A stretch of DNA of 64,000 nucleotides, from IMG/VR virus record IMGVR_UViG_3300035074_000077, positions 1 through 64,000 of that record. One strand, 5' to 3'. Shown in pieces: positions 30,631-63,781 of the stretch; position 1 is the first letter of the stretch; each line of letters starts with the position of its first letter. A program made the position numbers and the translations under genes. Source of the stretch: a virus. The notes beneath the pieces were generated by a model. That model was given only the letters and a program-made list of their open reading frames with translations, was not told where the DNA came from and did not search any database.

Positions 30631-30705
30631 TGGAGCCCTAGGCAGGATTTGAACCTGCGACCCGCCCCTTACGAAGGGGCCGCTCTACCACTGAGCTACA
30701 CGGGC
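30631..30705 (-). tRNA. tRNA-Thr (anticodon CGT)
   Basis: A 75-base cloverleaf including an encoded CCA. The D-arm (GCTC/GAGC), 5-bp anticodon stem GCCCC/GGGGC with loop TTCGTAA, and T-arm GCAGG-TTCAAAT-CCTGC are intact; the anticodon CGT reads ACG. The acceptor stem has two adjacent mismatches (pairs 5-68 and 6-67, G.A and T.T), so it may be degraded, a phage-adapted tRNA or an attachment-site relic. It lies between the head operon and the early operon. Confidence 0.85.
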
Positions 30706-33165: not shown

Positions 33166-34491
33166 TCAGAACAGCGGCTCGTCCATCCGGATCGGCGGCG
33201 GCGGTTCCTCCCGCTGTTCGCCGCGCGCGTTCCCGGCGCTGTCCGGCCGGCGCGCGAATCCGCGCACCTTTTTCCCGGTCAGCCATACGAACGGATTTTG
33301 CCGCATGATGATGTTGAGCTGCATCAGCCGCTCCCCGTGTCGCTTCATCGCCTGCGACAGCTTGTCCTGCCGCTTCTTCGGATCTGCCTCATCGGCGCCG
33401 TCAAACGCCATGCCGGCGAAGACCTCGCCGAGCCGCTTCCACTTCACGACGCGCGTTCCCGCCGGCAGGCCGAGCGCTGGCGGCGCGTCCTCGCCGTGGT
33501 CGCTGAGCGCGCGATAGATCGCGCGCAAGAAAACCTCGCATTGCGGAGTCAGTCGCGTCCCGGCATCCGTCGCCTTCGCGGTCTCTCCCGGCTCGCCATC
33601 CGTGTTCGGCTCCCGGACGACGCAGCTCGTCACCGCCTCGCCGTCGGAGTCCTTTCCGATCTCGACGGCGGGCAGAACGAAGCGCCATTTCCGGCCGCTC
33701 TCGCCGTCCTTCTGCTTCGCCAGCTCGATCTCTCGAATAGCGCGCCGGTCAACGTCCATTTCATCGAGCTTCTCGACCTTCAGGACCGAGTCCAGATTGG
33801 CGAGGATCGAGGTGTGGCCGCGCGGCTTCTGCCCGCCCGAGTTCATATGGTGGACCAGCATCACAGCGCAGGCGCATTCCTGCGCGATGCGCTCGCAGCG
33901 CGCCAAGACGGGCCCGACGTCTTTCGAGGAGTTCTCATCAGCCCCTGGCGTCGCCGTCGAAAGCGTGTCGATGACGACGAGCTCCAAAGGGCTGTCGAAG
34001 GTCGAAGCCCAATGCTTCGCCTCTGCGATCAGCGCCGTCGTCGCGTCATCGCCGGCATAGAGATCGACCGGCGCCGGGAGGAGCACGAAGGGCAGCTCGA
34101 CCTGCGACTCGAGCCCATGCTCGATGCGATATGCCCTGAGACGTTTCTTGATCCCGCGGCCGCCCTCTCCGGCCTGATAGACGACGCCGCCGCGCCGAAC
34201 CTTTGCGCCGAACCATGGCACGCCTCGGACGATCGCCATCGCGAGGTCGATCGCGAGAAAGCTCTTCCCGGATTGTGAGGCGCCGACCATCATCGTGCGC
34301 TCGCCTCGCGTGATGACACCCTTTACGAGCCATTCATGCTCCGGGCCCGGCATGTCCAGCTCCGTCCAGCGGACGGCACGGAACTTCGACTGATACGGCG
34401 GCGGACGCAGGTAGGGCTCGCTTGTCAGAATAAACTCTTCAAGCGTCTGGGGCTGCGGGAGCGGGTCTAGGACGGTAGGCGCTGCGCTCAT
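33166..34491 (-). CDS. RepA-like AAA ATPase/helicase (AAA_25)
   Basis: 441 residues from ATG 34491; sequence upstream in the frame is shadow of the HNH gene. Walker A VGASQSGKSFLA (70-80) and Walker B LELVVIDTLSTATPG (about 157-171), followed by MLVHHMNSGGQKPRGHTSILANLDSV, match RepA/KaiC-like hexameric ATPases of phages and plasmids. It should unwind or load at a replication fork with the primase-type protein encoded upstream at 39023-40225. Start overlaps the HNH stop (ATGA). Confidence 0.85.
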   Translation of the reverse strand: MSAAPTVLDPLPQPQTLEEFILTSEPYLRPPPYQSKFRAVRWTELDMPGPEHEWLVKGVITRGERTMMVGASQSGKSFLAIDLAMAIVRGVPWFGAKVRRGGVVYQAGEGGRGIKKRLRAYRIEHGLESQVELPFVLLPAPVDLYAGDDATTALIAEAKHWASTFDSPLELVVIDTLSTATPGADENSSKDVGPVLARCERIAQECACAVMLVHHMNSGGQKPRGHTSILANLDSVLKVEKLDEMDVDRRAIREIELAKQKDGESGRKWRFVLPAVEIGKDSDGEAVTSCVVREPNTDGEPGETAKATDAGTRLTPQCEVFLRAIYRALSDHGEDAPPALGLPAGTRVVKWKRLGEVFAGMAFDGADEADPKKRQDKLSQAMKRHGERLMQLNIIMRQNPFVWLTGKKVRGFARRPDSAGNARGEQREEPPPPIRMDEPLF

Positions 34492-34886
34492 TCTGCCGCC
34501 CTCCCGCGCGCAACCTCGCGCGCCACCGCCGCGCGCGTCTCCTTGCGCAGCGCCGCCAGCGCATCGGCATGCGCCCGCAGCGTCGCCTCCACGGCTGAGA
34601 TATTGCCGAATGCGGCGACAAGCTCGGCGTCGCCGAGATCGGCGAGCATCAGCGCCGCCTGCACGATCATCTCGCGCGAGGCGACCGAATGGCCGCGCAC
34701 ATTGTTGCAGGCCGCATGAGCCGGAAACACCAGCCCGAGCGCGGTCGCGCGCGGCAGGGCCCGCGAGAACGTTTGCGGCGTGAAATGATCGGCGGTATGC
34801 GCCTCGACGATCGCGCCGCCGCAGATCACGCAGCGATCGGGGAAGCGCGCGGAGATGCGCCGCGCTGCGCGTCCTTTCGCGCTCAT
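34488..34886 (-). CDS. HNH endonuclease-like protein
   Basis: 132 residues from ATG 34886. RCVICGGAIVEAHTADHFTPQTF and GLVFPAHAACNNVRGHS give a CxxC pair, His-Asp-His and the Asn/His C-terminal HNH elements. It is embedded in a coupled replication operon, so it may process DNA during replication or act as a homing remnant. Overlaps the RepA-like gene by four bases. Confidence 0.7.
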   Translation of the reverse strand: MSAKGRAARRISARFPDRCVICGGAIVEAHTADHFTPQTFSRALPRATALGLVFPAHAACNNVRGHSVASREMIVQAALMLADLGDAELVAAFGNISAVEATLRAHADALAALRKETRAAVAREVARGRAAE

Positions 34887-34978
34887 TCGGCCGGGCCCCT
34901 CCGTAGCGCCGCATCGAGCCGCGCGCCGCGGCAAATCGACAGGAACCGGATGGGCTCTATGTCATGGGCTCCCGCCAT
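34883..34978 (-). CDS. 31-residue peptide coupled to both neighbours
   Basis: ATG 34978 overlaps the stop of the upstream gene, and its TGA (34883-34885) overlaps the ATG of the HNH gene. The peptide starts MAGAHDIEPIRFLSICRGAR and is basic. ATGA overlap on both sides argues for real translation, at least as a coupling relay. Function unknown. Confidence 0.5.
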   Translation of the reverse strand: MAGAHDIEPIRFLSICRGARLDAALRRGPAE

Positions 34979-37191: not shown

Positions 37192-37467
37192 CTATCGCCG
37201 CCGTGACGACGAATAATCGCGCGGCTGATCGCCCAGATCCTCCAGCGTCGCGCGCATCGCCGCCACGATCTGCGGCTTCCGCGTTTCGAACAGCACGAGC
37301 AACCTCACGATCACATCGAGCCGCACCTCTCGATGCGAGCCCCATGGCGCGCGATGCTCCGTTGTGTCTTTGTGCATATTCTGCAACTCGTCGAGGATCT
37401 GGTCGTAGCTGTAGCGCCTCGGCGAGGTCGCGACTTCGTGCGCTCGTTCGGCGGGTGTGCTGCTCAT
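37192..37467 (-). CDS. Hypothetical 91-residue protein
   Basis: Start ATG 37467 (MSSTPAERAHEVATSPRRYS). Helical, with VRLDVIVRLLVLFETRKPQI in the middle and a Ser/Arg-rich end. Overlaps the methyltransferase stop by four bases. No family recognised. Confidence 0.6.
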   Translation of the reverse strand: MSSTPAERAHEVATSPRRYSYDQILDELQNMHKDTTEHRAPWGSHREVRLDVIVRLLVLFETRKPQIVAAMRATLEDLGDQPRDYSSSRRR

Positions 37468-39026
37468 CGCGCCGCCCTCTTCATCGTCACGATGCATGTA
37501 TTGACGTTCGTCCCGCTCTCTCGAAACGAGCCTGCCGGCAAATCTCGGAATGAGCCGCAATACCGCTCGACGAGCGCGCGAAACGCGATAGCCTTGCGCG
37601 TCTCGCGGAACTCGGTTCCGGCGCTCATGATCGCGAAGAGGGAGCCGCCGGGCTTCAGAAATTCGAACGCGTGCGTCACATGGTCGATATCGCGCTCTCG
37701 GTCGAATGGCGGATTCATGACGACGAGGTCGTAGGGCTCGAACGCGCTCGGCCGCAGCGAGAGGAAATCGGCGCAGATGACGCGGTTGTAGATTCCTTTC
37801 GCCTCGAGACCGGCGGCAAGCTCGGGCTGGATTTCGACGCAATCGACGAGGTTGTCGAAGCGATACTCATTGGCGTAGCGCTCGCGCGTATATTCGTTCC
37901 AGCCGTTCATTTCGGCCGCCGAGTGGACGCAGCGCCGCGCGAGGTTCCCGGTCCCCGCCGATGGCTCTAGGATGCGCAGACGCGGCTCGTCCCTGCGTCG
38001 CAGGATCGGAATGCCTGAGACGCACCCGCGCCCGTTGAAAAGCTCCTCGACGGCCTCCGGCGGCGTCGGGAAGAATCCGAAGCGCCGGGACGGCGTGAGC
38101 TTGCGGTCCTGCAGCGGGTCCGCTTCCTGTGTCGCGCCGTCCGCAATGACCTCACCGTAATATTCGGCGAGCAGCTTGTTCACCTTCTCGACGAGGTCGT
38201 CGCGCGAAAACCAGAGGTGCGCATTGCCGTTCTTGTATGCGCGGATGCGGAAGTACGGCGTTTCGTGCTCGCTTTGCGCTCCGCCGAGCTTTGTCTTGCG
38301 TCGCGACAATTGATCGATGGCGGATTGAAACGAACCCTCGGGATGACCGTCCAGCACGGAAAAGACGCGCTCCACATCGATCAGCTTGTCCCGGATCCAG
38401 CCGCTATTGAGATAGCCGTAGCTGTCGAAAACATAGGTCAGAATGATGCGCGACCCGATCTTGAAGCCGTCGTGCGACTTGAAGCGACGATCGAGTTTCG
38501 AGAAGACGTTGGCGATCCCTCGGCAGAATATCATTCCAGCATCGCCGAAGAATTTTTCCAGCGTCGCATAGACGTTCTCGACCGTGATCGGAGGAAGCCC
38601 CTTCTCCATTTCCTTTTGATTGATAATCTGCCCGTACCCGTTGACCTTGTCCGGGACGTAGGCCATTTGGGCGCGAAGCTGCTCCTTCGCCTCATTGTCC
38701 ATGAGCCGCTCGAGTTCCGACATCTTGACGATGTTCGCCCAGGCGCCGTTCCCTAGCAGCTTGCGCGCGGTCCGCATGTAGCGGTCGCGCGGCGGGAGAT
38801 TGAGCGCGTTGCGGAACTGCGCGATCTCTTCCGCCCCAGCGCCGCCGAATGTGCGTAGCTGGCCCCTGTCCGCGTCGTGCGCGCGCTCGTGCGCGGCGCG
38901 CAACGCCTCTTGCGCGATCTCCAGCGCATCGAAGGCGCGCTCATAGAGCACAAGCGCTTCGTCGTGCGCGCGCACGATATCCTCGACCGTCTGGCGAGGG
39001 ATCGGGAGGGCCGGCCCTGCGCTCAT
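37464..39026 (-). CDS. DUF4942 / N6-adenine methyltransferase fusion
   Basis: 520 residues from ATG 39026. Residues about 60-300 match DUF4942 (VYATLEKFFGDAGMIFCRGI, FKIGSRIILTYVFD), and the C-terminal part is a class I methyltransferase with RILEPSAGTGNLARR (SAM site) and DLVVMNPPFDRERD (NPPF motif of amino-methyltransferases). It likely methylates adenine in phage DNA, protecting against restriction or marking replicated DNA. Coupled to the primase gene upstream. Confidence 0.85.
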   Translation of the reverse strand: MSAGPALPIPRQTVEDIVRAHDEALVLYERAFDALEIAQEALRAAHERAHDADRGQLRTFGGAGAEEIAQFRNALNLPPRDRYMRTARKLLGNGAWANIVKMSELERLMDNEAKEQLRAQMAYVPDKVNGYGQIINQKEMEKGLPPITVENVYATLEKFFGDAGMIFCRGIANVFSKLDRRFKSHDGFKIGSRIILTYVFDSYGYLNSGWIRDKLIDVERVFSVLDGHPEGSFQSAIDQLSRRKTKLGGAQSEHETPYFRIRAYKNGNAHLWFSRDDLVEKVNKLLAEYYGEVIADGATQEADPLQDRKLTPSRRFGFFPTPPEAVEELFNGRGCVSGIPILRRRDEPRLRILEPSAGTGNLARRCVHSAAEMNGWNEYTRERYANEYRFDNLVDCVEIQPELAAGLEAKGIYNRVICADFLSLRPSAFEPYDLVVMNPPFDRERDIDHVTHAFEFLKPGGSLFAIMSAGTEFRETRKAIAFRALVERYCGSFRDLPAGSFRESGTNVNTCIVTMKRAAR

Positions 39027-40225
39027 GCCGCCGCCCTCTGCCGGCGCGACAGCAAGACGTCGTTCCAATCGGACCCGTCCGGAGCTAAATGAACGAGCAC
39101 CTCGAGCCCGAGGCGCCGGAACCGCTCGGCTCCCGTCGCCAGCATCGCGCGTGTCATCGCAGGGTCGCTGTCTCCGTCACCGATCAGGATGAGGCGGCGG
39201 ACGCCGGCCGGAACCCACATCGCTCCGCTCGACATGTCCGGGTCGCCGTTGGGAATCGTCGCGTTGGCGTGTCCCCTCGGCGGCCGAGGATGCGGCTTCG
39301 TCCCGGTCGCGCTCCCACACATGTTCCCAAGGCTATAGGCCGCCGCGATCGCCGCGCCGGCGGCAGCCTCCCCAAACTCGCCATCGCGCGCCATCGCGCG
39401 CCAGCTGCACGCCGTCTCGATCCCCTCGGCGACGGCGAGCGTCTCGGCCGGCTCGCTCAACAGGATGAGCCCGCCGCCCATCCTGAACGCGCCCTTCTTC
39501 GCCTTGTTGCGCTTCCTGTCGCCGGGCGGGCGCAGCTTCATCGGTCCCGCCGGGTCGAGATAGGTCCGATGGACGCCCTGCAATGATCCGTCCGGTGCGC
39601 GCATCGCCGCGAGCATGCAGTCGAAGACGCCGAGCTCCACCTCCTCTTGGGAGTCGGAATCGACGAACCCGCGATAGGAGAGATTGTGGACGAACCGCAG
39701 ATCCGCAGTCGAAAACGTGTGAAGAAAGATCCCGCGCCTTTCCAAATAATCGTCCGCGGCCGTGAGTTCGATCGGGCGCCCCTGAGAGAACAGCCTCTCG
39801 GCGCGCTCTGCCCCGGCCCGCTTCTCTGCCGCCTCTTGCTCGCGGCGCGCGATCTCTTCGTCCCGGCGCTCTTCTTTGCGCTCCTTATCGATCGCCGGGT
39901 CACGCTGGCGCGCGCTCTCCTTCGGATCGCGATCGGGCGCCGACTCGTCGAGGATCGCTTCGCAGATGCGGATGAAGTCTCTCTTCGGATCGAGCCCTTG
40001 TATGTGCGCCGCCATGTCGATGACGCCGCCGCCGCCGAAGCCACGGCAATTGAAAACGCGCTCGCGTGTGTTCACGCTGAAGCGATCGGAACCGCCACAG
40101 ACCGGGCACGGGCCCGCCAGTTCCGCGGCGCCCGCCTTCTTCAGCTTCGCGCCCATCGCTTCCGCAACGGCGCGGATATCGGCGCTCTTCGCGCGCTCGA
40201 CGAATGAGTCCCGGTCTTCGCTCAT
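39023..40225 (-). CDS. CHC2-zinc-finger/Toprim primase-type protein
   Basis: 400 residues from ATG 40225. The N-terminal zinc finger reads CPVCGGSDRFSVNTRERVFNC and is followed by RGFGGGGVIDMAAHI, as in DnaG-like and phage P4/T7-like primases. The C-terminal Toprim region shows LAVAEGIETACSW (acidic) and RRLILIGDGDSDPAM (DxD). It should make primers for phage replication with the RepA-like ATPase in the same operon. No separate helicase domain is visible in this gene. Confidence 0.85.
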   Translation of the reverse strand: MSEDRDSFVERAKSADIRAVAEAMGAKLKKAGAAELAGPCPVCGGSDRFSVNTRERVFNCRGFGGGGVIDMAAHIQGLDPKRDFIRICEAILDESAPDRDPKESARQRDPAIDKERKEERRDEEIARREQEAAEKRAGAERAERLFSQGRPIELTAADDYLERRGIFLHTFSTADLRFVHNLSYRGFVDSDSQEEVELGVFDCMLAAMRAPDGSLQGVHRTYLDPAGPMKLRPPGDRKRNKAKKGAFRMGGGLILLSEPAETLAVAEGIETACSWRAMARDGEFGEAAAGAAIAAAYSLGNMCGSATGTKPHPRPPRGHANATIPNGDPDMSSGAMWVPAGVRRLILIGDGDSDPAMTRAMLATGAERFRRLGLEVLVHLAPDGSDWNDVLLSRRQRAAA

Positions 40226-41151
40226 CGGCGCGGCTCCGGGAATTCTCTGACGAGAAGATCGTCCGGTAGCGGCCTCTTGCCGACGTTCTGTTTGCCAAAG
40301 AATGGAACGCCGGCCGCGCGACATTGGGAAAGCAAGGCGCGTGCGTTCAGTTCGAAGTCATTGTCGCGCGCGCCTGGGCCGCTCTCGCCGCCGGTGATGA
40401 CCCAGTCGAGGCCTTCGCACGGAGCGCCAGTCAGGTCGCACCGCTCGAAGCTCTCGCCGAGAGCGACATGCGTGCTCCCGCATATCGCCTCGCCCATCCA
40501 CATTCTGAGATCGATTGGCCCGAGCAACGGCTCGCAGCTCACGCCGCGAACGGCGGCCGGCGTCGCGAGAAGATCGGGAATGCGCTCGTCGGCGCGGGGC
40601 TGATCCTCCGCCGTCACGCCGAGCCATACGTTGGGGAGCGGCCACTTCTCGATCGATAGGCACGGCGACTCGCGGGGCGCGAACGTCAAGCCGAGATGCT
40701 CAAGCGGCTGGTTGACCTGAGCCATGTCATACACTTGCTGCGCGACACGCGCGTTCGCCGCCTCGAAGTATTCCCGCATCCGCTTCGGCCGCTTTGTCAG
40801 CACCTGGAATGTATGCTGCGGCGACAGCGCCATCACCGCGAAGACGCGGTCGATCCATTCGTCCGGCACGCTCTCGTGAAATAGATCGCTCATCGAGTTC
40901 ACGAAGATGCGGCGGGGCTTTTTCCAGTGCAGCGGCTTCAGCAGCACGCTCTCGGGCGCCTGCTTCAGAACGCCGGTCCACACCGCCTTGCCGTTAAGGA
41001 CCTGCGTCGTGCCGGCATAATGCGACGCAGACGTCATGCGTTCGATCCGCGCGGCCATCACCATCGCGTAGCAGTTCGTGCAGGCCGGGGACACGAGGCT
41101 GCAGCCGACGATCGGGTCCCATGTCTCATCACACCACTCGATCTTTGACAT
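40222..41151 (-). CDS. Gp37/Gp68 family protein (DUF5131)
   Basis: 309 residues. The start SKIEWCDETWDPIVGCSLVS followed by PACTNCYAM gives the C-x6-C-x2-C trio of this family, and WTGVLKQAPE, PRRIFVNSMSDLFHE and TFQVLTKRPKRM are family-typical. The family has a radical-SAM-like cysteine layout; its reaction in phages is not established. It often travels with phage methyltransferase and HNH genes, as here. Confidence 0.85.
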   Translation of the reverse strand: MSKIEWCDETWDPIVGCSLVSPACTNCYAMVMAARIERMTSASHYAGTTQVLNGKAVWTGVLKQAPESVLLKPLHWKKPRRIFVNSMSDLFHESVPDEWIDRVFAVMALSPQHTFQVLTKRPKRMREYFEAANARVAQQVYDMAQVNQPLEHLGLTFAPRESPCLSIEKWPLPNVWLGVTAEDQPRADERIPDLLATPAAVRGVSCEPLLGPIDLRMWMGEAICGSTHVALGESFERCDLTGAPCEGLDWVITGGESGPGARDNDFELNARALLSQCRAAGVPFFGKQNVGKRPLPDDLLVREFPEPRR

Positions 41152-49732: not shown

Positions 49733-50500
49733 ATGCCGCCGGTTAAAATACCATTCATGTGGTCAGCCAAGGACTTACTCGCGAGGATCGAAGCCCGAAC
49801 GAAGTCGCTCGGGCTATCGGACGCGGACGTCGGCCGGATCGCCGAAAAGCCTGACCTCATGAAAAACATCCGCACTGCGGCGCGGCAGAACAGGACCTAT
49901 GAGCCTCGGGCTGGCACAATGAAGGCTCTGGCACGGGCGTTGAGGGTCCAAGAGAGTTGGCTGACCGCAATCGACGACGAGGCGCGACAACCTCCAGACG
50001 AGGTTGCTATTTCGTCTGTCGACGATGAGATCGGCCGCTCGGCTTCCGCGAACATTCTCGAGATCGATGTGCGAGCCGGCGCCGGTGGCGGCGGAATCCG
50101 AATTGACGACGTGGTCGTCTATGATGACGCCGGCAACTCCTATGCGGCGGAGAACGTCGCGGGGGAATGGACTCTCCCGGCCGCAGTGCTGTCCGGGGTC
50201 CTGAAATCCACGCCCAAGCACATCAAGGTCTTCGAGATCATGGGCGACTCGATGGAACCACGGCTTTTCGAAGGGGACCGTGTGTTCGTCGACACCCGCT
50301 ACACTGCCCCGCATCCTGAAGGGATTTTCGTCCTTTGGGATGGCTATTCGATCGTGGTCAAGGGGCTGCAAATAGTTCGGGGAACCGATCCGCTTCGGGT
50401 GACGATCATTTCTGAGAACCGGCGCTATCCGCCTTACGAGACGACGATCGACGAGATCAAGATCATCGGCCGATACGCCGGCCGATTCACGACGAGATGA
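49733..50500 (+). CDS. S24/LexA-type phage repressor
   Basis: 255 residues. N-terminal helix-turn-helix-like region (KDLLARIEARTKSLGLSDAD, about 13-80) and a C-terminal S24 peptidase domain with EIMGDSMEPRLFEGDRVFVD (Ser 173) and SIVVKGLQI (Lys 210), the catalytic dyad for RecA-stimulated self-cleavage. It maintains lysogeny by binding operators. The start at 49733 has AGAAGGGG; a second Met (49757, MWSAKDLL) is typical of relatives and would put a degenerate operator in the leader. Confidence 0.92.
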   Translation: MPPVKIPFMWSAKDLLARIEARTKSLGLSDADVGRIAEKPDLMKNIRTAARQNRTYEPRAGTMKALARALRVQESWLTAIDDEARQPPDEVAISSVDDEIGRSASANILEIDVRAGAGGGGIRIDDVVVYDDAGNSYAAENVAGEWTLPAAVLSGVLKSTPKHIKVFEIMGDSMEPRLFEGDRVFVDTRYTAPHPEGIFVLWDGYSIVVKGLQIVRGTDPLRVTIISENRRYPPYETTIDEIKIIGRYAGRFTTR

Positions 50501-56220: not shown

Positions 56221-56715
56221 ATGACCATCAAACTCGAAGACATCCGCATCGGCGACAAGGTGACGCTGCACGCGAAGATTGTCGAAGATGGCTGGGCGAA
56301 TGGATCATTCGTCGCAAACGTCGGCGGGGCGCGTGTCGGTATCGCTGGGGCAGATATCGCCACTCATACGCCGGCGCCTCGCGAGTTCAAGCCGGGCGAG
56401 ATAGTGAGGATAGGGGCTGGCGTGACGCATTATCGGTTCATCGCCGAAGATGATGGCTATGCTTTTGTTGCGCTAATCGGCGATGAACCAACGCGACGGA
56501 TTTTGCCTGTTTGCGATCTTCGTCACGCCGACGCCCCCGTGCCACCCCCGCAAGAGCCGGTGAAGGAGCGGAAGAAGATCGAGGCGTGGGTGAACGTGTA
56601 TCAAGGCGACGATTTCGGGAAGGGCCATAAGAGTCGACTAGAGGCTGACGACGCGGCGACTACGAGGCGCATCGCCTGCCTGCATGTCGAAGGCTACGAG
56701 GGAGATGGGCTGTGA
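56221..56715 (+). CDS. Hypothetical 164-residue protein
   Basis: An N-terminal small beta domain (EDIRIGDKVTLHAKIVEDGW), a second beta unit (KPGEIVRIGAGVTHYRFIAE) and a linker (PVPPPQEPVKERKK) before WVNVYQGDDFGKGHKSRLEA. The first part resembles DUF2158/OB-like domains (VGDKV.L). Preceded by GAGGCCAAG. Confidence 0.6.
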   Translation: MTIKLEDIRIGDKVTLHAKIVEDGWANGSFVANVGGARVGIAGADIATHTPAPREFKPGEIVRIGAGVTHYRFIAEDDGYAFVALIGDEPTRRILPVCDLRHADAPVPPPQEPVKERKKIEAWVNVYQGDDFGKGHKSRLEADDAATTRRIACLHVEGYEGDGL

Positions 56716-57101
56716 AAATCAAATACGAAGCGGACGACGGCAGGCTGTTCGACAGCGCTGAAGCGGCGAAGGCGCATGAGGAAGCGATCGTGTTCAAGCC
56801 GCTTCTCGGCCTGGACGAAGCGCGGCTCATGCTGGCGTTGCAGCGGCATCCTGACGCGCTGGACATCGCCGAGGCGCTGGAAAAGGCGGGAACGCGTATC
56901 GCGGCTCTGCGGCGCGCTTCCGGCGAGCTGAAGCGCCGTGGCAAGAGCGAGCCGGAGCCGGCGGGAGGGGAGACGCCGCAGGTTGGCGAAGACGAGACAG
57001 CCGCTAGCGAGCCGTTGCTCGGCAACAGCCTGCTCGAAACCGCCGACCGAGAGGAAGCCGCTCGCGCCGCTGCCGAGCGCGTGGAGGGCCTGCCGATATG
57101 A
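56712..57101 (+). CDS. Hypothetical 129-residue protein
   Basis: GTG 56712 overlaps the previous stop (GTGA). MKIKYEADDGRLFDSAEAAK, then a helical region and an acidic tail. The N-terminus resembles phage proteins with Y...DG..F.s...A..YE.... Coupled to the RecE-like gene by ATGA. Confidence 0.6.
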   Translation: MKIKYEADDGRLFDSAEAAKAHEEAIVFKPLLGLDEARLMLALQRHPDALDIAEALEKAGTRIAALRRASGELKRRGKSEPEPAGGETPQVGEDETAASEPLLGNSLLETADREEAARAAAERVEGLPI

Positions 57102-58096
57102 GCGTCGAGACATTTCCCATGACCACGCTCGGGGCTGCGGCTGCGGCCGTCGTCGAGCGGTTGCGGCCGAAGCGGGACTTCGTGGCGAAGCCGATCGCTC
57201 ATGGCGAGATCATCACAGAGCCCGGCGTCTACGACATGCCGATCGAACATTATCACGGCAACTGTTGTGCAGGTCCGTCGATTTCGTCGAGCGGCCTGCG
57301 GACAATCGACGCGAAGTCGCCGGCGCACTATTGGGATGAGAGCTATCTCAACCCGGAATATGACCCGGCAGAAGACGCTGCGCATTATGTGCTCGGCCGA
57401 GCCGCGCATACGCTGCTGCTTGGCGAAGAAGGGTTCCGCGAGAAGTTCGTTGTCCGTCCTGACGAGTTCGACTCGTGGCGGACTAAGGCATCGAAGGCGT
57501 GGCGGCGCGAGCAGCTCGACTCCGGCAAGTCTGTTCTGGAACCGAAGGACATCGCCACCATCAAGGCAATCGCTGGCGCGCTCGGGCGCGACCCGCTCGT
57601 CTCGCAAGGGCTCCTCAACGGCGAGATCGAGCGGTCGATAATTTGGCGAGACAGTGAAACCGGGGTGTGGCTGAAAAGCCGGCCTGACGCGCTTCCGGTC
57701 AATGCCGATCTTGTCGCGGACCTGAAGACATGCACATCGGCGGCGCCGCGCGACGTGCGCAATTCGATTGCTGAATACGGCTACCATATGCAGCTCGCGC
57801 TCGTCGGCATGGGGATGAAAGAGGTTCTTGGCCGCGAGATCAGCGACGAAGATTTCGTTCTTGTCTTCGTCGAGACGAAGCGGCCGTATTGCGTCAACGT
57901 GAAGCCTGTTTCTCCAGATGCGATCTTCGCCGGCCGGGCGCAGCTTCGTCGCGCTATCCGCAAGTTCGCGGAATGCCTCGAAAAGAATGAGTGGCCCGGA
58001 TACGAGGACAACGGCATCACCGCGTCTCTGCCGAAATACGTTCAAGACCGTCTCGATAGCGAGCGGAAGATGGGTCTCTTGCCGGATGTCGCATGA
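57098..58096 (+). CDS. RecE-like exonuclease (PD-(D/E)XK, DUF3799-like)
   Basis: 332 residues. The central domain has HYVLGRAAHTLLLGEEGF, and WLKSRPDALPVNADLVADLK with Lys-Thr next, giving RPD...D-x-K nuclease residues (about 205-225), then YHMQLALVGMGMKEVLG. RecE/VIII-like enzymes chew the 5' strand to leave a 3' tail for RecT, which is encoded two genes downstream. Used in recombination-dependent replication. Confidence 0.82.
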   Translation: MSVETFPMTTLGAAAAAVVERLRPKRDFVAKPIAHGEIITEPGVYDMPIEHYHGNCCAGPSISSSGLRTIDAKSPAHYWDESYLNPEYDPAEDAAHYVLGRAAHTLLLGEEGFREKFVVRPDEFDSWRTKASKAWRREQLDSGKSVLEPKDIATIKAIAGALGRDPLVSQGLLNGEIERSIIWRDSETGVWLKSRPDALPVNADLVADLKTCTSAAPRDVRNSIAEYGYHMQLALVGMGMKEVLGREISDEDFVLVFVETKRPYCVNVKPVSPDAIFAGRAQLRRAIRKFAECLEKNEWPGYEDNGITASLPKYVQDRLDSERKMGLLPDVA

Positions 58097-58362
58097 TGTT
58101 GGGAAAAGCAAAGGGAGATCGGTTCCATGGAACCGATGACGACTTCGCCGAGGTTGAGCCGATGGTTGTCCTGCGGATGAGCAAGGCAGACGCCGAGCGC
58201 GTTCAGCATGGCATGGCAGACATTCTTTGCTGGGTTCGCGGTTTCGTCGCCGCGTGTCCTGAAGATCCAGAGCGGCACCCGATGGGCGTCCATGAGGTGA
58301 GAGACATGCGCGACGCTATTCGTCGGGCGATAGACACTAGCGACGAAGGGAACACGCAATGA
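58093..58362 (+). CDS. Hypothetical 89-residue protein between recE- and recT-like genes
   Basis: ATG 58093 overlaps the exonuclease stop (ATGA). VVLRMSKADAERVQHGMADI and CWVRGFVAACPED look helical. Possibly an accessory factor of the recombination pair; no family recognised. Confidence 0.6.
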   Translation: MMLGKAKGDRFHGTDDDFAEVEPMVVLRMSKADAERVQHGMADILCWVRGFVAACPEDPERHPMGVHEVRDMRDAIRRAIDTSDEGNTQ

Positions 58363-59363
58363 GCAATCAAGTCGCCGTCGCGCAGCCGAACGCTACGGTC
58401 GTTCAAGAGCCGAAAAAAAGCTCCTACAGGGATATCCAGATCGCCGAGACGAACAGCGGCGGCGGGGGCCTTCTCTTGCCTCGAGATTTTGGCGAGGTCG
58501 TTGCTTTCGCGGAACTCATGTCGAAAGCCGACATTGCCGTGCGCAAGCACTTCCGCGGCAACGCCGGCGCCTGCATGGCGGTGACTCTTCAAGCGATGCG
58601 CTGGGGCATGGATCCTTTTGCCGTCGCGAACAAGACCTATTTCGTCAACGATCAGCTCGCCTATGAAGCGCAGCTCGTCGCGGCCGTCGTCATCACGACG
58701 GCGCCGATCGCGCGCCGGCCCGACTACGAGTTCATCGGGGAAGGCGCTGGCTTGAAGTGCATCGTCACCGTCGAGATGCTGGACGGATCGACGAAGAAAT
58801 ATGAATCCCCCCTGCTGGGGGCCATCAAGACGAAGAACTCTCCACTATGGGTCGCCGACCCGCAACAGCAGCTCGGATATTTTTCGATCCGCTCCTGGGC
58901 GCGCCGGCACACGCCGGACGTGATCATGGGCGTCTACACGCCGGATGAATTGGAAAGCTCGCCGCGGCTCGTCTCTGAGGCGCCCGCACGCTCTCGACTG
59001 GCGGAGAAGCTGTCCGGCGCGCCGAAGGGGCAGAACGGTTTTTCGGAAGGGTTCGTGGCGCGGGAGATCGACGGCGGGGAGGTCATCACGAATGAGCCTG
59101 CGCCAGACGCCGGCGGAGAGCCTGTGAGCGCTAAACCGACGCCGACTGGCGGAGATGGTGCGGGGACTGCGGAAGCGAGCCATACAGCCTCCGCTGCCGA
59201 TCCTGAGCCCGTGAGCGAATGGTTCGCGAAGGGCGCTGAAGCCGCGCGCGCCGGCATGAGCCGTAAGGCGCTGCCGCCGGAACTGCGTTCGCCAGATCGC
59301 GCCGACGACGCGGCGGAGTGGTTCTCTGGCTACGATTCCGTGAAGCATGGGGGCGCCGCATGA
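58359..59363 (+). CDS. recT: RecT-family single-strand annealing protein
   Basis: 334 residues. Residues 35-210 match RecT: FRGNAGACMAVTLQAMRWGM, DPFAVANKTYFVNDQLAYEA, SPLWVADPQQQLGYFSIRSW, and ARRHTPDVIMGVYTPDELE. The C-terminal third is polar. It anneals complementary strands with the RecE-like nuclease in phage recombination. Overlaps upstream gene (ATGA). Confidence 0.9.
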   Translation: MSNQVAVAQPNATVVQEPKKSSYRDIQIAETNSGGGGLLLPRDFGEVVAFAELMSKADIAVRKHFRGNAGACMAVTLQAMRWGMDPFAVANKTYFVNDQLAYEAQLVAAVVITTAPIARRPDYEFIGEGAGLKCIVTVEMLDGSTKKYESPLLGAIKTKNSPLWVADPQQQLGYFSIRSWARRHTPDVIMGVYTPDELESSPRLVSEAPARSRLAEKLSGAPKGQNGFSEGFVAREIDGGEVITNEPAPDAGGEPVSAKPTPTGGDGAGTAEASHTASAADPEPVSEWFAKGAEAARAGMSRKALPPELRSPDRADDAAEWFSGYDSVKHGGAA

Positions 59364-59614
59364 GCGCCAATCTGAAGCCCCTCGCTGCGGCGCTGGCGAG
59401 CCGGGAGCGCGCGGAGATCGCCGGCTTGCTCGAGCGCGGATACCTCTACGTCGACACGATCTCCGGCGGCACCGCCGACACCCGTCGCGCTTCGGCGGAG
59501 GGGCTGAGGCAATATCTCGAATCCGTCGAGAAGCGCCAGACGACGGTCCTCGTCAGCCCGCTCGGATATACGCGCGTCTATGCCAAGCGCCCGACGCGGA
59601 AGGAGCCGGCGTGA
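59360..59614 (+). CDS. Hypothetical 84-residue protein
   Basis: ATG 59360; MSANLKPLAAALASRERAEI, then LLERGYLYVDTISGGTADTR and a basic end. Overlap of four bases with RecT. No family recognised. Confidence 0.6.
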   Translation: MSANLKPLAAALASRERAEIAGLLERGYLYVDTISGGTADTRRASAEGLRQYLESVEKRQTTVLVSPLGYTRVYAKRPTRKEPA

Positions 59615-59961
59615 ACGCGCGGCGCTTCGCCAATCGCGACAGCAAACCGAAGGCGAAGCGCGTTCCAGCGCTGAGAGGGTTCAAGGGGCTTTCGAAGGAG
59701 AAGGACAAATGGCCGGACCAAGCGCCGACGCTGTCGTCTCTCAAACCTGGAGACCTCGCATATTTCATGCGCTCCGGTCTCCAATCCGGGATGCTGACTG
59801 AGTTCGAGCGTGGAATCGCGCAAGCGGTCCTCGATCGATTGAAGTCAGGGCGATGCCCGAGCGAGTGGCACAAGATGATGCTGGACGAGCGCGGCGTGCT
59901 GGCGCGCTGTTGGGATAGTGATCTCGAATTGTGGAATGAAAAGGAACAGTCACCATGCTGA
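59611..59961 (+). CDS. Hypothetical 116-residue protein
   Basis: GTG 59611 overlaps the previous stop. Basic N-terminus (MNARRFANRDSKPKAKRVPA) and LAYFMRSGLQSGMLTEFERG. Possibly DNA associated. Overlaps the exonuclease gene by seven bases. Confidence 0.58.
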   Translation: MNARRFANRDSKPKAKRVPALRGFKGLSKEKDKWPDQAPTLSSLKPGDLAYFMRSGLQSGMLTEFERGIAQAVLDRLKSGRCPSEWHKMMLDERGVLARCWDSDLELWNEKEQSPC

Positions 59962-60677
59962 TACGAGTCCTCGATTTGGAGACTACCGGACTCACCGCGC
60001 CAGACGCCGCCCCATGCGAAATCGGGTGGCAGGATATCGTAGGCCCCGATGGCGGAGATTGGGCTCTCGACAAGCTCGGCGCCGGAGAAATGCTCTGCAA
60101 CCCGTCGCGACCGATCCCGCCGGAGATCAGTGCGATTCACCACATCGTCGATGAGGATGTGGTGGATGCGGTGTTCTGGCCCGCCGCGCTCGCGAAGGTC
60201 GCGTGCCGTGACAGCAAGCTCTTCTCGCCGACGATCTTCGCCGCCCACAACGCGAAGATGGAGCGCCAATGGCTGACCGACGAAGTGACCGGCGGGAAGC
60301 CGTGGATCTGCTCCTATAAATGCGCGCTGCGGCTCTGGCCCGATGCGCCGTCGCACAGCAACCAGGCGCTCCGCTACTGGCTGAAGCCGGCCGGGCTCGA
60401 TCGCGCTCGCGCGGCGCTCTCCCATCGCGCGTTTCCAGACGCCTATGTGACCGCCTTTATTCTGCTCGAGCAGCTGAAGCTGGCGACGCTGGCGCAGCTT
60501 CTCGAATGGTCGAGCAAGCCGGCGCTCCTCACCAAGATCAGGTTCGGCAAGCACGCCGGCAAGAAATGGAGCGAGGTTCCGAGCGATTACCTGGACTGGT
60601 GCCTACGCCAGGACATGGACGAAGATGTCCTATTCACCGCGCGGCATGAACTGGAACAGCGTCGGGTGCGCGGATGA
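59955..60677 (+). CDS. DnaQ-like DEDDh exonuclease (exonuclease X type)
   Basis: 240 residues. IRVLDLETTGLTAPD (D7, E9), an HNAKMERQWL block (Exo II) and HRAFPDAYVTAFIL (H..D, Exo III) form a DEDDh 3'-5' exonuclease. The C-terminal region (IRFGKHAGKKWSEVPSDYLD, WCLRQDMDED) is the DUF3820-like extension seen in exodeoxyribonuclease X. Likely proofreading or recombination processing. Confidence 0.85.
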   Translation: MLIRVLDLETTGLTAPDAAPCEIGWQDIVGPDGGDWALDKLGAGEMLCNPSRPIPPEISAIHHIVDEDVVDAVFWPAALAKVACRDSKLFSPTIFAAHNAKMERQWLTDEVTGGKPWICSYKCALRLWPDAPSHSNQALRYWLKPAGLDRARAALSHRAFPDAYVTAFILLEQLKLATLAQLLEWSSKPALLTKIRFGKHAGKKWSEVPSDYLDWCLRQDMDEDVLFTARHELEQRRVRG

Positions 60678-61072
60678 CTCGCCGCCGCCGAGAGTTCCCG
60701 ACGAAGGTCCGCGTCGCCGTCATCAAGAGGGCGATGCGCGGGAACGTCGTCTATTGCGAACTCTGCGGCGGCGTGGCGAAGCGGTTCCAAATCGACCACG
60801 TCATTGCCGACGCGCACGGCGGCGAGCCTGTGATCGAGAATGCGCAGCTTCTTTGCGAGGAATGCTTCGGGGAGAAGAACCCGAAAGACACGAAGATCGC
60901 GGCGAAGCTGAAACGCATCGAGGCCCGGCACGTCGGCGCGGATGTCCCGAAGCAACGACTGAAATCGCGCGGCTTCCCGAAGCGCCAGAGAGAGCCGGCA
61001 ATCGACAAGGGCGCTCTGCCGCCGCTGCCCAGGCGGGTCTGCGGGCAATTGGTTGAAGGTGGAGAACGATGA
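60674..61072 (+). CDS. HNH endonuclease-like protein
   Basis: 132 residues. VYCELCGGVAKRFQIDHVIA followed by NAQLLCEECFGEKN gives the HNH core (CxxC, DH, ..N.. CxxC). Positioned among recombination genes and coupled by ATGA to both neighbours. Might be a DNA-processing partner. Confidence 0.78.
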   Translation: MTRRRREFPTKVRVAVIKRAMRGNVVYCELCGGVAKRFQIDHVIADAHGGEPVIENAQLLCEECFGEKNPKDTKIAAKLKRIEARHVGADVPKQRLKSRGFPKRQREPAIDKGALPPLPRRVCGQLVEGGER

Positions 61073-61692
61073 CGATCGCGCCTTATCCTCTTCAGTGGCC
61101 TGCATCTCGGCCTCGCACGCGCGCTATCGACCGCAAGTCTGGACGGTTCAGCCGGAAGGAATATGTCGGCACGAACACGTGGCAGACGACGAAAGAAATG
61201 ACGGTCTCTGAGGCCATTAAGCGCCTGCAATCCGAACTCGATCGGATCGGCGCGACATACGCGGTCGTCAGCAGCAATCTCGAAATCCGCCTCGATGGTC
61301 TCCCGCGATCAGGCCAGCGTCAACCAGATGACCCCGGCGTAGCGGTCTATTTCCAGCTTCGCGGGAAGTCGCATTGTCTGCCCTGCGACACCTATCGCGA
61401 GGTCCATTCGAACATCGCGGCGGTCGCGGCGCATATTGCAGCGACGCGGGCGATCGAGCGCCACGGCGTTGCATCGGTCGCTGAGATGTTCAGCGGGTTT
61501 GCGGCGCTGACGCCGCCCGGCGCGAAATCATGGTGGGACATCCTGCAGGTTAGACCGGACGCGTCGCGCGAGGCGATCGAGGCGTCCTATCGCCGCCTCG
61601 CGCGCGAGCGCCATCCCGATGCCGGCGGCTCTCACGCAATGATGGCGGAATTGAACGCAGCGCGCGACGCCGCGCTGAGGGAGAGATCATGA
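61069..61692 (+). CDS. J-domain (DnaJ-like) protein
   Basis: 207 residues. The C-terminal 50 residues contain SWWDILQVRPDASREAIEAS and RRLARERHPDAGGS, a J-domain with HPD. Residues 1-150 are unrelated, with a Cys pair (HCLPCDT). J-domains stimulate DnaK-type chaperones; here it may recruit host DnaK to phage replication, as with lambda P/DnaJ. The HPD indicates functional interaction. Confidence 0.85.
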   Translation: MTIAPYPLQWPASRPRTRAIDRKSGRFSRKEYVGTNTWQTTKEMTVSEAIKRLQSELDRIGATYAVVSSNLEIRLDGLPRSGQRQPDDPGVAVYFQLRGKSHCLPCDTYREVHSNIAAVAAHIAATRAIERHGVASVAEMFSGFAALTPPGAKSWWDILQVRPDASREAIEASYRRLARERHPDAGGSHAMMAELNAARDAALRERS

Positions 61693-62672
61693 AGACCGAC
61701 AGCGAACGTGAGGGCGGCGTGATGGCTGAGAACGTGACGCGAGAAGATATCGCTGAGATGATCGAGTTCGTGCGGGGCGAGTTGAGCAACCGCGAGTTTG
61801 GCGGGCACGAAAGCGAGTATGTCGCATCGGCGCGCCGATCCCTCGCCATCGCCGAGAAGCTGCCGGCGCTGGTGGCGGAGCGTGACGCGCTGAAGGAAGA
61901 GCGGGACGATGCGAGACGACTCGCGACGAACGCGCTCTCACAAGCGCAGGACTGGCGGCACAGCGCAGAGACCGCCCGCGAGACGATCGCGAACCTGCTG
62001 GAGGCGCTGGCGAATATCTCGTGCGGATGCGGCACAACATGCATGCTCATGATGCCTAAGGAAGCATGCGCCCACCACGCCGCGACGAAAGCCCTCGCGC
62101 ATCTCGACGCGCTGCCGTCCCCCACCCGCCGCGCCGCAGCCGTTTCCCGCGCACTGTTCCGGGATGCGGAAGCGGGCGCGTGCGGGGAGAAGGTCGAGAA
62201 TGCCACCGGCCATACCGATCTCATGATCTCTCCTGAGGCGATCGACGAAGCGCTGGCCGCGAACCCGCTGCCGGATGAATTGGCGAACATCGCCCCGCCA
62301 CTCACGATCGATTACACGAACTGGCGCGGCGAGCGGCGCGTCCGCGACATCCTCCCGCTCCGTATCTTCTTCGGTTCGAACGAGTGGCACAAAGAGCCGC
62401 AGTGGTTGCTCGAGGCGGTCGATCCGGAAGACGGAAAGACGAAGACGTTTGCGTTCGCCGGCATTCATGGCTTCGGTGAGGACAGCCGCCTCGCGCAGGC
62501 CGAGCGCGCGGTTGCCGAGGCGGTGGAGATCATGCGTCCGGTCTCGGAAGTGGAGATTTGGCGCGACATATACCCAGACGGGCCGGACATCATGAATGGG
62601 GAGTTCCACGCCGATCCTGAGTTTGTTCGCGCGGCCCGCTTGTTCGTCGAGAAGCATGGAGGCGCGAAGTGA
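61689..62672 (+). CDS. Hypothetical 327-residue protein
   Basis: Start at 61689 (a Met at 61722 is an alternative). Coiled-coil N-terminus (RREDIAEMIEFVRGE-like, REDIAEMIEFVRGELSNREF) followed by a Cys-rich patch (NISCGCGTTCMLMMPKEACA) and a C-terminal domain with WRGERRVRDILPLRIFFGSN, resembling DUF551 or WYL-like core. Function unknown. Coupled to dnaN. Confidence 0.6.
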   Translation: MKTDSEREGGVMAENVTREDIAEMIEFVRGELSNREFGGHESEYVASARRSLAIAEKLPALVAERDALKEERDDARRLATNALSQAQDWRHSAETARETIANLLEALANISCGCGTTCMLMMPKEACAHHAATKALAHLDALPSPTRRAAAVSRALFRDAEAGACGEKVENATGHTDLMISPEAIDEALAANPLPDELANIAPPLTIDYTNWRGERRVRDILPLRIFFGSNEWHKEPQWLLEAVDPEDGKTKTFAFAGIHGFGEDSRLAQAERAVAEAVEIMRPVSEVEIWRDIYPDGPDIMNGEFHADPEFVRAARLFVEKHGGAK

Positions 62673-63781
62673 AGCTCACCGTCAACCGATCCGCGCTGCT
62701 GAAGGCGCTTGAGCCGGCGCGCCGCGTCTCGGAAGCGCGAAGCACGATTCCGATTCTCCTGAACGTCCTGCTGGCCGTCGAGAACGGAAAGCTCCGCATC
62801 GAGGCGTCAGACCTCGACATGGTGCTGAGCGTCGCCGTGGAGGCCCAGGTCGAGAGGGCCGGCTCTCTCACCGCTCCCGTGAGGACACTTTACGACCTGG
62901 TGCGAAAGCTCCCCGATGGCGCCTCGATCGCGCTCGAGGCGAGCGACGGGATGCTCCAGGTCCGCAGCGGGAGGACGCGGGCAAAGATCGCGACTCTGCC
63001 GGCGGGAGACTGGCCGGAAGTCATCAAGGATGACAACTGGCTGGCCCGCTTCAGCATGTCGCCGGACGTGTTCTCCGGTATGCTGGCGCGGACTGAGTTC
63101 GCGATCTCGTCAGAAGAGACACGCTACTATCTCAACGGCGCGTTTCTGCACTGCGTCGAGCTCGAGGGTCGGCGCGTGCTGCGCATGGTGACGACGGATG
63201 GTCACAGGCTCGCCAGGATCGAGACCGCAGCGCCAGAAGGGATCGCGGAAATGCCGGCCGTTATCGTCCCGCGGAAGGCCGGAGCGGAGATCGAGAAGCT
63301 CTGCAAGGGCGCGAGCGAGATCACGATCGCGCTGTCCTCGAACAAGATGCGCGTCGACATCGGCGATGTGCGGCTCTCGTCGAAGCTGATCGACGGCACC
63401 TATCCCGACTATTCGCGCGTCATCCCGGAGAACGGCACGAAGATCGCGGTGGTCAACCGCGCTGCCTTCGCGGCAGCCGCCGATCGTGTCTCGGTCGTTT
63501 CGACTGAGCGCGGCCGCGCCGTGAAGCTCGCATTCGATCCGGGCCGGCTGGTTCTTTCCGTGACCGCATCGGACCAGAACTCGGCGGTCGAAGAGATCGA
63601 GGCCAATTACGACGGCCCGCCGATCGAGATCGGCTTCAACTCGCGATATCTCGCCGACATTTTGCAGACGATCGAGGGCGGAGAGGTCCGCGTGTCAATG
63701 TCGGATGCGGGATCGCCGGCGCTGTTGCAATCCACTGCGTCGAACGATCTTCTGATCGTGCTCATGCCGATGCGGATCTAA
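62669..63781 (+). CDS. dnaN: DNA polymerase III beta subunit (sliding clamp)
   Basis: 370 residues, the size of bacterial DnaN. MKLTVNRSALLKALEPARRV, TIPILLNVLLAVENGKLRIE and the end NDLLIVLMPMRI (the clamp C-terminal MP(M/I)R.) are canonical. It forms the ring that tethers a DNA polymerase. No DNA polymerase gene is in the window, so the host polymerase or a gene beyond the right edge must use it. Coupled to its neighbour by ATGA. Confidence 0.95.
   Translation: MKLTVNRSALLKALEPARRVSEARSTIPILLNVLLAVENGKLRIEASDLDMVLSVAVEAQVERAGSLTAPVRTLYDLVRKLPDGASIALEASDGMLQVRSGRTRAKIATLPAGDWPEVIKDDNWLARFSMSPDVFSGMLARTEFAISSEETRYYLNGAFLHCVELEGRRVLRMVTTDGHRLARIETAAPEGIAEMPAVIVPRKAGAEIEKLCKGASEITIALSSNKMRVDIGDVRLSSKLIDGTYPDYSRVIPENGTKIAVVNRAAFAAAADRVSVVSTERGRAVKLAFDPGRLVLSVTASDQNSAVEEIEANYDGPPIEIGFNSRYLADILQTIEGGEVRVSMSDAGSPALLQSTASNDLLIVLMPMRI

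Follow-up and report, generated by a model that had tools for sequence, protein, structure and literature searches.

A recombination operon of a temperate phage encoding a full-length sliding clamp and a J-domain protein that probably borrows host DnaK

The window analyzed in the present study is a stretch of 64,000 nucleotides (positions 1 to 64,000) of the virus record IMGVR_UViG_3300035074_000077, which comprises 70,801 bases. The record belongs to a temperate phage; a CI-like S24 repressor and an integrase are signs of this lifestyle. A rightward chain of overlapping genes occupies 56712-63781 on the + strand. The genes of the chain and two distant genes of the same record are as follows.

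56712..57101, + strand: unnamed ORF opening the chain, 129 aa; 4-base overlap with the RecE-type gene; no Pfam match
57098..58096, + strand: RecE-type PD-(D/E)XK exonuclease (DUF3799, exonuclease VIII type); PF12684 6.3e-19, phrog_412 5e-80
58093..58362, + strand: small gene (ORF), 89 aa; 4-base overlap with each neighbor
58359..59363, + strand: RecT-family single-strand annealing protein; PF03837 1.6e-19 (70.7 bits), phrog_561 9e-68
59360..59614, + strand: small gene, 84 aa, from direct reading of the sequence; ATGA overlap with recT
59611..59961, + strand: small gene, 116 aa, GTG start, from direct reading of the sequence
59955..60677, + strand: DEDD 3'-5' exonuclease, ExoX/DnaQ type; PF00929 7e-9 (36.9 bits), phrog_192 1.1e-41
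60674..61072, + strand: HNH endonuclease; PF01844 1.1e-8 (35.6 bits), phrog_333 1.1e-10
61069..61692, + strand: J-domain protein, 207 aa; phrog_9210 4e-57 over residues 5-205
61069..61512, + strand: N-terminal domain of the J protein, residues 1-148, alpha/beta fold; outside the Pfam DnaJ match and itself without a Pfam match
61510..61689, + strand: C-terminal J-domain of the J protein; PF00226 1.5e-7, 31.9 bits (cut-off 27.8)
61689..62672, + strand: 327-codon gene separating the J gene from dnaN; phrog_3715 at the C-terminal part, 1.5e-16
62669..63781, + strand: dnaN, full-length DNA polymerase III beta sliding clamp; three Pfam clamp domains, TIGR00663 275 bits
33166..34914, - strand: phage helicase/primase-type ATPase (AAA_25), distant from the operon; PF13481 1.7e-42, phrog_906 4.7e-43
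39023..40324, - strand: phage DNA primase (Toprim), distant from the operon; PF13362 4.7e-8, phrog_510 9.2e-58

Nine of the ten junctions from the ORF at 56712 through dnaN are 4-base overlaps, and the remaining one is a 7-base overlap. Therefore, the genes of 56712-63781 likely form a single translationally coupled unit, and the recombination genes would be co-transcribed through dnaN. The first-pass annotation had placed RecE-like, RecT, DnaQ-like, HNH, J-domain, and sliding clamp genes in one rightward operon at 57098-63781. Pfam, PHROG, and NCBIfam matches located all six in this range and on this strand, and the overlapping chain agrees with an operon. However, that description was incomplete because the 327-codon gene and the small genes at 58093-58362, 59360-59614, and 59611-59961 had been left out. 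The J gene is also not situated just before dnaN, as had been stated, because the 327-codon gene lies between them. This gene showed a WYL match of 17.4 bits, below the Pfam cut-off of 21.8, and its relatives (25 loci) resemble it mostly in the C-terminal part. No family match in Pfam or PHROG was obtained for the 59611-59961 gene, with a slightly longer frame as the query. Beyond dnaN, where inspection had been recommended, ten ORFs were tested, and Pfam named only a small HTH protein, a tyrosine integrase, and a T5orf172-type protein. At the DNA level, nine records of the phage collection were related to the operon, each with coverage of 2% or less.

As in a RecE/RecT system, a RecE-type nuclease and a RecT-family annealer occur together in the chain; one 89-aa gene lies between them. 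The RecE-type protein scored 69.1 bits against PF12684 (cut-off 26), and its match to the NCBIfam exodeoxyribonuclease VIII model (1e-31) was below the model cut-off; the protein has 332 aa and covers positions 597-864 of the 877 positions of this model. The designation "DnaQ-like" for the exonuclease was upheld in part. The best PHROG family, phrog_192, is named DNA polymerase exonuclease subunit, which counts against a non-DnaQ reading. However, the protein reached only 21.2 bits against the dnaQ model TIGR00573 (cut-off 71.5) and is thus not assigned to DnaQ (Pol III epsilon), and its best NCBIfam model was exodeoxyribonuclease X at 96.2 bits, below the cut-off of 202. Three of the best 80 of 558 dnaN relatives (L228, L240, and L242) have the same order of RecE, RecT, ExoX, and dnaN, with the end of RecE approximately 2.2 kb ahead of dnaN. 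In six annotated phage dnaN regions, profiles grown from the genes of the window detected neither RecT nor RecE nor the exonuclease; one of these regions carries annotated Sak4- and Cas4-type genes. The profiles missed other recombinase types, and RecE-RecT-ExoX is thus just one of several gene arrangements beside dnaN.

The clamp was correctly described as full-length. All three Pfam clamp domains were above the cut-off, and the TIGR00663 score was twice the cut-off of 137.65, which identifies a beta clamp. It retains 94 of the 117 columns that are invariant across 10 chromosomal alphaproteobacterial clamps, and the TDGHRL and MPMR motifs, which we assign to the protein-binding cleft, are intact. 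Its identity was 50-52% to five chromosomal Hyphomicrobiales clamps and 43% to the clamp of Hyphomicrobium, another member of this order. A search with the single dnaN protein confirmed zero relatives, and a search with the dnaN alignment gave 558; among the best 80, the nearest was the IMG/VR locus L208 at 55% identity. In the clamp tree, the window clamp was placed in an open fork, and only identities were used for its origin; the inputs of the tree included a 64-residue piece (phage_G015b) and one G017 gene entered twice under two names. A loose scan of the operon proteins for clamp-binding motifs gave one match, in RecT, which was taken to be part of the folded core and not counted.

Profiles for DNA polymerase families C (PF07733), A (PF00476), and B (PF00136) and for Hsp70 (PF00012) found no match in the 70.8-kb record, which may be incomplete, and matched in control genomes. 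An own polymerase of these families and an own Hsp70 were thus rejected. Since neither was found, the clamp should serve the host polymerase, presumably Pol III, and any activity of the J protein should use host DnaK. The part of the first-pass annotation that invoked host polymerase and DnaK agrees with these results.

The J-domain is genuine, as judged from both the sequence match and the predicted fold. The AlphaFold model of the protein had a mean pLDDT of 93.9. The HPD motif (residues 182-184, 61612-61620) sits between the predicted helices 167-181 and 189-206, and the J-domain fold matched 2guz_A with Z 8.8 and rmsd 2.3 over 60 aligned residues. By this motif, the protein is a J-domain (DnaJ/Hsp40) co-chaperone of the class C type, with putative stimulation of the Hsp70 ATPase. 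Class A DnaJ consists of an N-terminal J-domain, a G/F region, a zinc finger, and C-terminal domains. A full-length DnaJ was ruled out because the J-domain is C-terminal in the window protein, which scored 21.8 bits against the DnaJ_bact model (cut-off 377.2). In a structure search with the entire protein, J-domains filled the results. When modeled alone (pLDDT 92.6), the N-terminal domain gave HPF/RaiA/protein Y chains as its 13 best rows (Z 5.8-4.7, rmsd 3.3-4.8, identity 6-12%), and Foldseek returned no match at E 0.001 or better. With Z under 6, the likeness to HPF/RaiA is a hint from the model.

One IMG/VR pattern search gave 305 relatives of the J protein, and the family ranges from alphaproteobacterial phages to haloviruses. 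It has a well-conserved N-terminal domain and a J-domain in which HPD is mostly kept and missing from scattered members (11 of 108 representatives). The family tree included 108 of the 109 representatives (L152 was incomplete and dropped), and gain and loss were indistinguishable from it; the structure alignments had 98 rows (A4) and 75 rows (A7). The J profile recognized 151 loci and missed three of the 49 genome loci (L153-L155, short matches). A reading of the whole family is that these are co-chaperones of phages and archaeal viruses whose HPF/RaiA- or dsRBD-like N-terminal domain directs host DnaK, during take-over, to ribosomes or a nucleic-acid complex; lineages without HPD would have kept only the binding part. 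We regard this as very improbable.

The first-pass annotation proposed that the J protein recruits host DnaK to assemble or remodel a phage replisome composed of the phage clamp and host polymerase. In favor of this model, the J gene and dnaN belong to a common chain of overlapping genes, and neither a polymerase nor an Hsp70 was found in the record. Moreover, a part of chaperones in phage replication has a precedent in lambda, in which DnaK/DnaJ/GrpE free DnaB from lambda P (available text of PMC3640518), and the authors of the Halorubrum virus BJ1 genome annotated the related ORF5 with "role in DNA replication?", the question mark being theirs (available text of PMC2194725). However, the neighborhood does not bear out such a replisome. 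The distance between dnaN and the J gene was 1 kb or less in two of 109 non-redundant J loci, the window included (0.71 by chance, p 0.156), and a J gene was located within 1 kb of dnaN in none of 65 non-redundant viral-contig dnaN loci, drawn from the best 80 of 558 relatives, namely, those most like dnaN of the window. Among 50 J-bearing records, picked mostly on length from 104 J-bearing virus or phage loci, four had dnaN; the window and L100, both with dnaN, were not among the 50. The J profile had no match in the six annotated phage dnaN regions. In phage Sansa, both genes are present approximately 20 kb apart, and the helicase- and primase-type genes of the present record are sited on the opposite strand at 33-40 kb. 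A conserved J-dnaN unit was rejected on these counts, and we consider the replisome model very unlikely. In L228 and L240, the J gene is located 7.7-8.3 kb further along the same strand past RecE-RecT-ExoX-dnaN, and so its place varies. Since the J gene is in the coupled chain of dnaN here and dnaN is 0.5 kb from the J gene in L100, a link is possible in some phages. As a separate observation, some of the 143 phage records appear to carry host DNA, e.g., Salmonella records of >500 kb.

The J protein may instead recruit DnaK to load, unload, or refold complexes of RecT, RecE, and HNH. HNH genes were within 1 kb of seven of 109 J genes (1.77 by chance; none of 2000 placements reached this number), and RecT genes were within 2 kb of ten (5.09 by chance, p 0.016); RecT was on the strand of the J gene in 19 of 19 cases. 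Among the 109 loci, the excess of RecT within 1 kb (5 vs 2.75, p 0.13) was not significant, and RecE and the exonuclease showed no significant excess at either distance, 1 or 2 kb. These counts include the window, and without it become six for HNH, nine for RecT, and one for dnaN; the p values are from 15 gene-distance tests and uncorrected, and the profiles, grown from the window's own genes, missed other recombinase types. Compact chains of RecE, RecT, J, and HNH occur in L021 and L098, the J gene of Synechococcus phage Ssp-JY39 adjoins HNH and is near Bet, and that of Microbacterium phage Hyperion is near recombinase, HNH, and RuvC-like genes. However, RecT or RecE was near the J gene in only 24 of 109 loci, and so a recombination setting is common, but not universal. 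In the genome stretches displayed for Erythrobacter phages R6L and ZS04, BJ1, Bakery, and HCTV-2, many genes are unnamed, and RecT does not figure among the annotated ones. Furthermore, co-location in early operons could account for the excess. A service to recombination is, in our view, unlikely.

Another explanation places the J protein in host physiology: as an early take-over factor, it would compete with DnaJ for DnaK, alter the heat-shock response, or blind a chaperone-dependent defense sensor. The family occurs in phages of unrelated hosts with varied neighbor genes. Rki of phage RB43, a phage J protein, binds DnaK, stabilizes sigma32, and aids growth in a J-domain-dependent manner (available text of PMC3486835); the defense protein bNACHT25 requires DnaJ to sense phage (available text of PMC12169576); and counter-defense was proposed for phage chaperones by the authors of a moraphage study (available text of PMC12619734). 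In contrast, the J-domain of Rki is N-terminal, unlike that of the window protein. HPD is also missing from 11 of 108 representatives; some phages thus seem able to do without DnaK stimulation, which counts against this explanation. PADLOC models, a library that covers defense rather than counter-defense, gave no match to the J protein. We put this explanation forward tentatively and consider it somewhat less than evenly probable. In the literature searched, Rki was the one worked example of a phage J protein; several of the searches were poor in matches, and we do not claim that the family is absent from print.

We consider it probable that the locus is a recombination module in which the J protein travels as a passenger, a co-chaperone relying on the DnaK of the host. 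The chain would be the early rightward operon of the temperate phage for recombination and replication. The RecE-type nuclease would resect ends, RecT would anneal or invade, and the ExoX-type exonuclease and HNH enzyme may trim or cut intermediates. The clamp, put on DNA by the host clamp loader, would then confer processivity on host Pol III on recombination-primed DNA. The J protein may be a separate mobile early gene inserted into the chain; its J-domain would recruit host DnaK, and the conserved N-terminal domain would pick the client, which is probably not the clamp. All of these biochemical activities are predictions.

The operon itself is a further instance of an already known type. 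The phage J-protein family is widespread and little described, and the N-terminal domain of the window protein lacks a Pfam model match. If the family steers host DnaK, the question arises why these phages call on Hsp70.

As in E. coli RecE/RecT, a RecE-type nuclease neighbors a RecT-type annealer; the window differs in the 89-aa gene that separates the pair and in its RecE-type protein of 332 aa, which corresponds to part of the exodeoxyribonuclease VIII model. Phage clamps such as those of Rhizobium phage 16-3 (p081), RHph_TM3_3_14B, and Aurantimonas phage AmM-1 are similarly full-length and encoded in rightward early operons, but are 38-45% identical to the window clamp. The unnamed family phrog_9210 includes DnaJ-like proteins of Caulobacter phage Sansa, Gordonia phage Bakery, and BJ1 (ORF5), which match the window J protein over the whole length with the same N-terminal domain and a C-terminal J-domain-like part; however, identities are 25-64%, and several, including those of Sansa and BJ1, lack HPD. 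Rki differs in its N-terminal J-domain and in that RB43 is T4-related, whereas the phage in the present study is temperate; the two J proteins are alike in being phage-encoded and in their presumed use of host DnaK (available text of PMC3486835).

Every gene listed in the first-pass annotation (RecE-like, RecT, DnaQ-like, HNH, J-domain, and dnaN) was present in one gene chain, in which neighboring genes overlapped by 4 bases at 9 of the 10 junctions and by 7 bases at the other. The J gene had also been placed directly before dnaN; however, this was incorrect because a 327-codon gene intervenes. The operon is real but ordinary, of known kinds. By NCBIfam scores, both below the cut-off, its exonuclease was closer to exodeoxyribonuclease X (ExoX) than to the epsilon subunit, and its best phage protein family (PHROG) is named DNA polymerase exonuclease subunit. 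The features of the virus record (70,801 bases) are as follows; L002 positions are given with their approximate place in the record.

56712-63781, + strand: operon, in the order 129-aa ORF, RecE-type nuclease, 89-aa ORF, RecT, 84-aa ORF, 116-aa ORF, ExoX/DnaQ-type exonuclease, HNH, J protein (61069-61692), 327-codon gene, and dnaN (62669-63781)
49733-50500: CI-like S24 repressor
L002:13986-15131 (record about 68986-70131): integrase
L002:15141-15620 (record about 70141-70620): the integrase is followed immediately by a T5orf172/MUG113-type protein, with which the record closes
33166-34914 and 39023-40324, - strand: helicase- and primase-type genes
On the - strand: terminase and tape measure genes
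37464-39068, - strand: 534-aa protein, the C-terminal part of which matches phage DNA methyltransferase families
40225-41151, - strand: DUF5131 (Gp37/Gp68) gene
30631-30705, - strand: tRNA-Thr (CGT) gene

To judge by its repressor and integrase, this is a temperate phage. The helicase- and primase-type genes are roughly 16-30 kb away from the operon genes. Neither a DNA polymerase of family C, A, or B nor an Hsp70 was found in the record, while the controls were detected. Ten ORFs beyond dnaN were tested against Pfam, and three received a name: the integrase, an HTH protein, and the T5orf172-type protein.

The window clamp has all three clamp domains and scored above the TIGR00663 cut-off. It retains 94 of the 117 columns invariant across 10 chromosomal alphaproteobacterial clamps as well as intact TDGHRL and MPMR motifs, and, therefore, should be functional. 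Clamps are not rare in phage collections: matches were obtained in 143 phage records, some apparently containing host DNA, and in at least 558 IMG/VR stretches. Six chromosomal clamps from Hyphomicrobiales were compared with the window clamp: five shared 50-52% identity with it, and the Hyphomicrobium one 43%. Identity was 38-45% for the clamps of phages 16-3, TM3_3_14B, AmM-1, RR1-A, and Mae-JY28, 32% for that of Pthi1, and 55% for L208, the closest IMG/VR clamp among the matches listed. A clamp tree did not resolve the position of the window clamp.

The J protein matched phrog_9210 (function unknown) across nearly its full length. One IMG/VR search returned 305 relatives, the best 80 of which were kept; bacterial genomes added 49 loci, and 29 phage records matched, including haloviruses BJ1 and HCTV-2. 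The AlphaFold model was confident (mean pLDDT 93.9), and its C-terminal 60 residues are a J-domain (Z 8.8, rmsd 2.3, 60 aligned vs 2guz_A). The N-terminal domain had no match in Pfam; modelled alone (pLDDT 92.6), its nearest solved folds were HPF/RaiA/protein Y (Z <= 5.8), a likeness that may merely reflect a common arrangement.

Of the 151 family members, 135 carry the HPD motif within their final 70 residues; the 16 without it include L060 and L064, which run off their contigs, and the truncated L152. It was missing in 11 of 108 non-redundant representatives, a distribution that takes no fewer than 10 changes to explain on a rapidly built N-domain tree. Repeated loss is the simplest reading of these sequences, on a tree that cannot separate gain from loss. 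The whole loop seems to be lost in 9/151 members (L011, L013, L019, L042, L103, L105, L106, L146, and L149), which keep the last ELNxARD-like helix.

A J-clamp partnership was unsupported by relatives. We compared 109 representatives, including the window, with 2000 random placements (15 tests, raw p values). dnaN was within 1 kb of J in two (window and L100; 0.71 expected, p 0.156). Conversely, among the best 80 of 558 dnaN loci (65 non-redundant at 85%), three had a J gene in the fetched flank and none within 1 kb (0/65). The clamp or replisome is an improbable client, although it may be one in this phage. The order RecE, RecT, ExoX, then dnaN recurred in L228, L240, and L242 of these loci; in L228 and L240, a J gene followed about 8 kb downstream on the same strand. 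Of 50 J-bearing records, four had a clamp match, three above the cut-off. Two records of 101 and 113 kb (G015 and G042) each carry two clamp genes, which could reflect two prophages or host sequence within one record. In six annotated phage dnaN regions, J, RecT, RecE, and exonuclease had no profile match and HNH matched in two; other-type recombination, SSB, or integrase neighbors were annotated in four (16-3, TM3_3_14B, RR1-A, and Pthi1), and the AmM-1 and Mae-JY28 regions held mostly unnamed genes.

HNH was within 1 kb of J in 7/109 (1.77 expected), a count reached in 0/2000 placements. RecT was within 2 kb in 10/109 (5.09 expected, p 0.016) and within 1 kb in 5/109 (2.75 expected, p 0.13); RecE and exonuclease showed no excess at either distance. 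Recombination proteins are a rather unlikely client. Immediate neighbors were mixed (DUF5131, YqaJ, NinB, RecT, HNH, methylases, and integrases), the top PHROG/Pfam family reaching at most 6/100 upstream and 8/97 downstream proteins; DUF5131 accounted for six and three, respectively. Small winged-helix/HTH genes lie directly or closely upstream of J in phages Sansa (L011:6482-7008), BJ1 (L016:6769-6984), and Bakery (L017:1836-2078); in the latter two, many nearby genes run in the opposite direction.

The operon probably serves recombination-coupled phage replication: RecE/RecT would generate DNA ends and anneal them, processing would fall to the exonuclease and HNH, and the phage clamp would allow host Pol III to extend the processed ends. 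Most likely, the J protein brings host DnaK to a client that its N-domain recognizes. Host take-over or counter-defense is the leading candidate role for this client, at less than even odds. Rki of RB43, as described in PMC3486835, is a phage J protein that binds DnaK, stabilizes sigma32, and aids growth in a J-domain-dependent manner. Host Hsp70 recruitment was predicted by the authors for jumbo-phage DnaJ-domain proteins in PMC7824862, and the entry for the BJ1 relative in the BJ1 genome paper reads 'role in DNA replication?' (PMC2194725).
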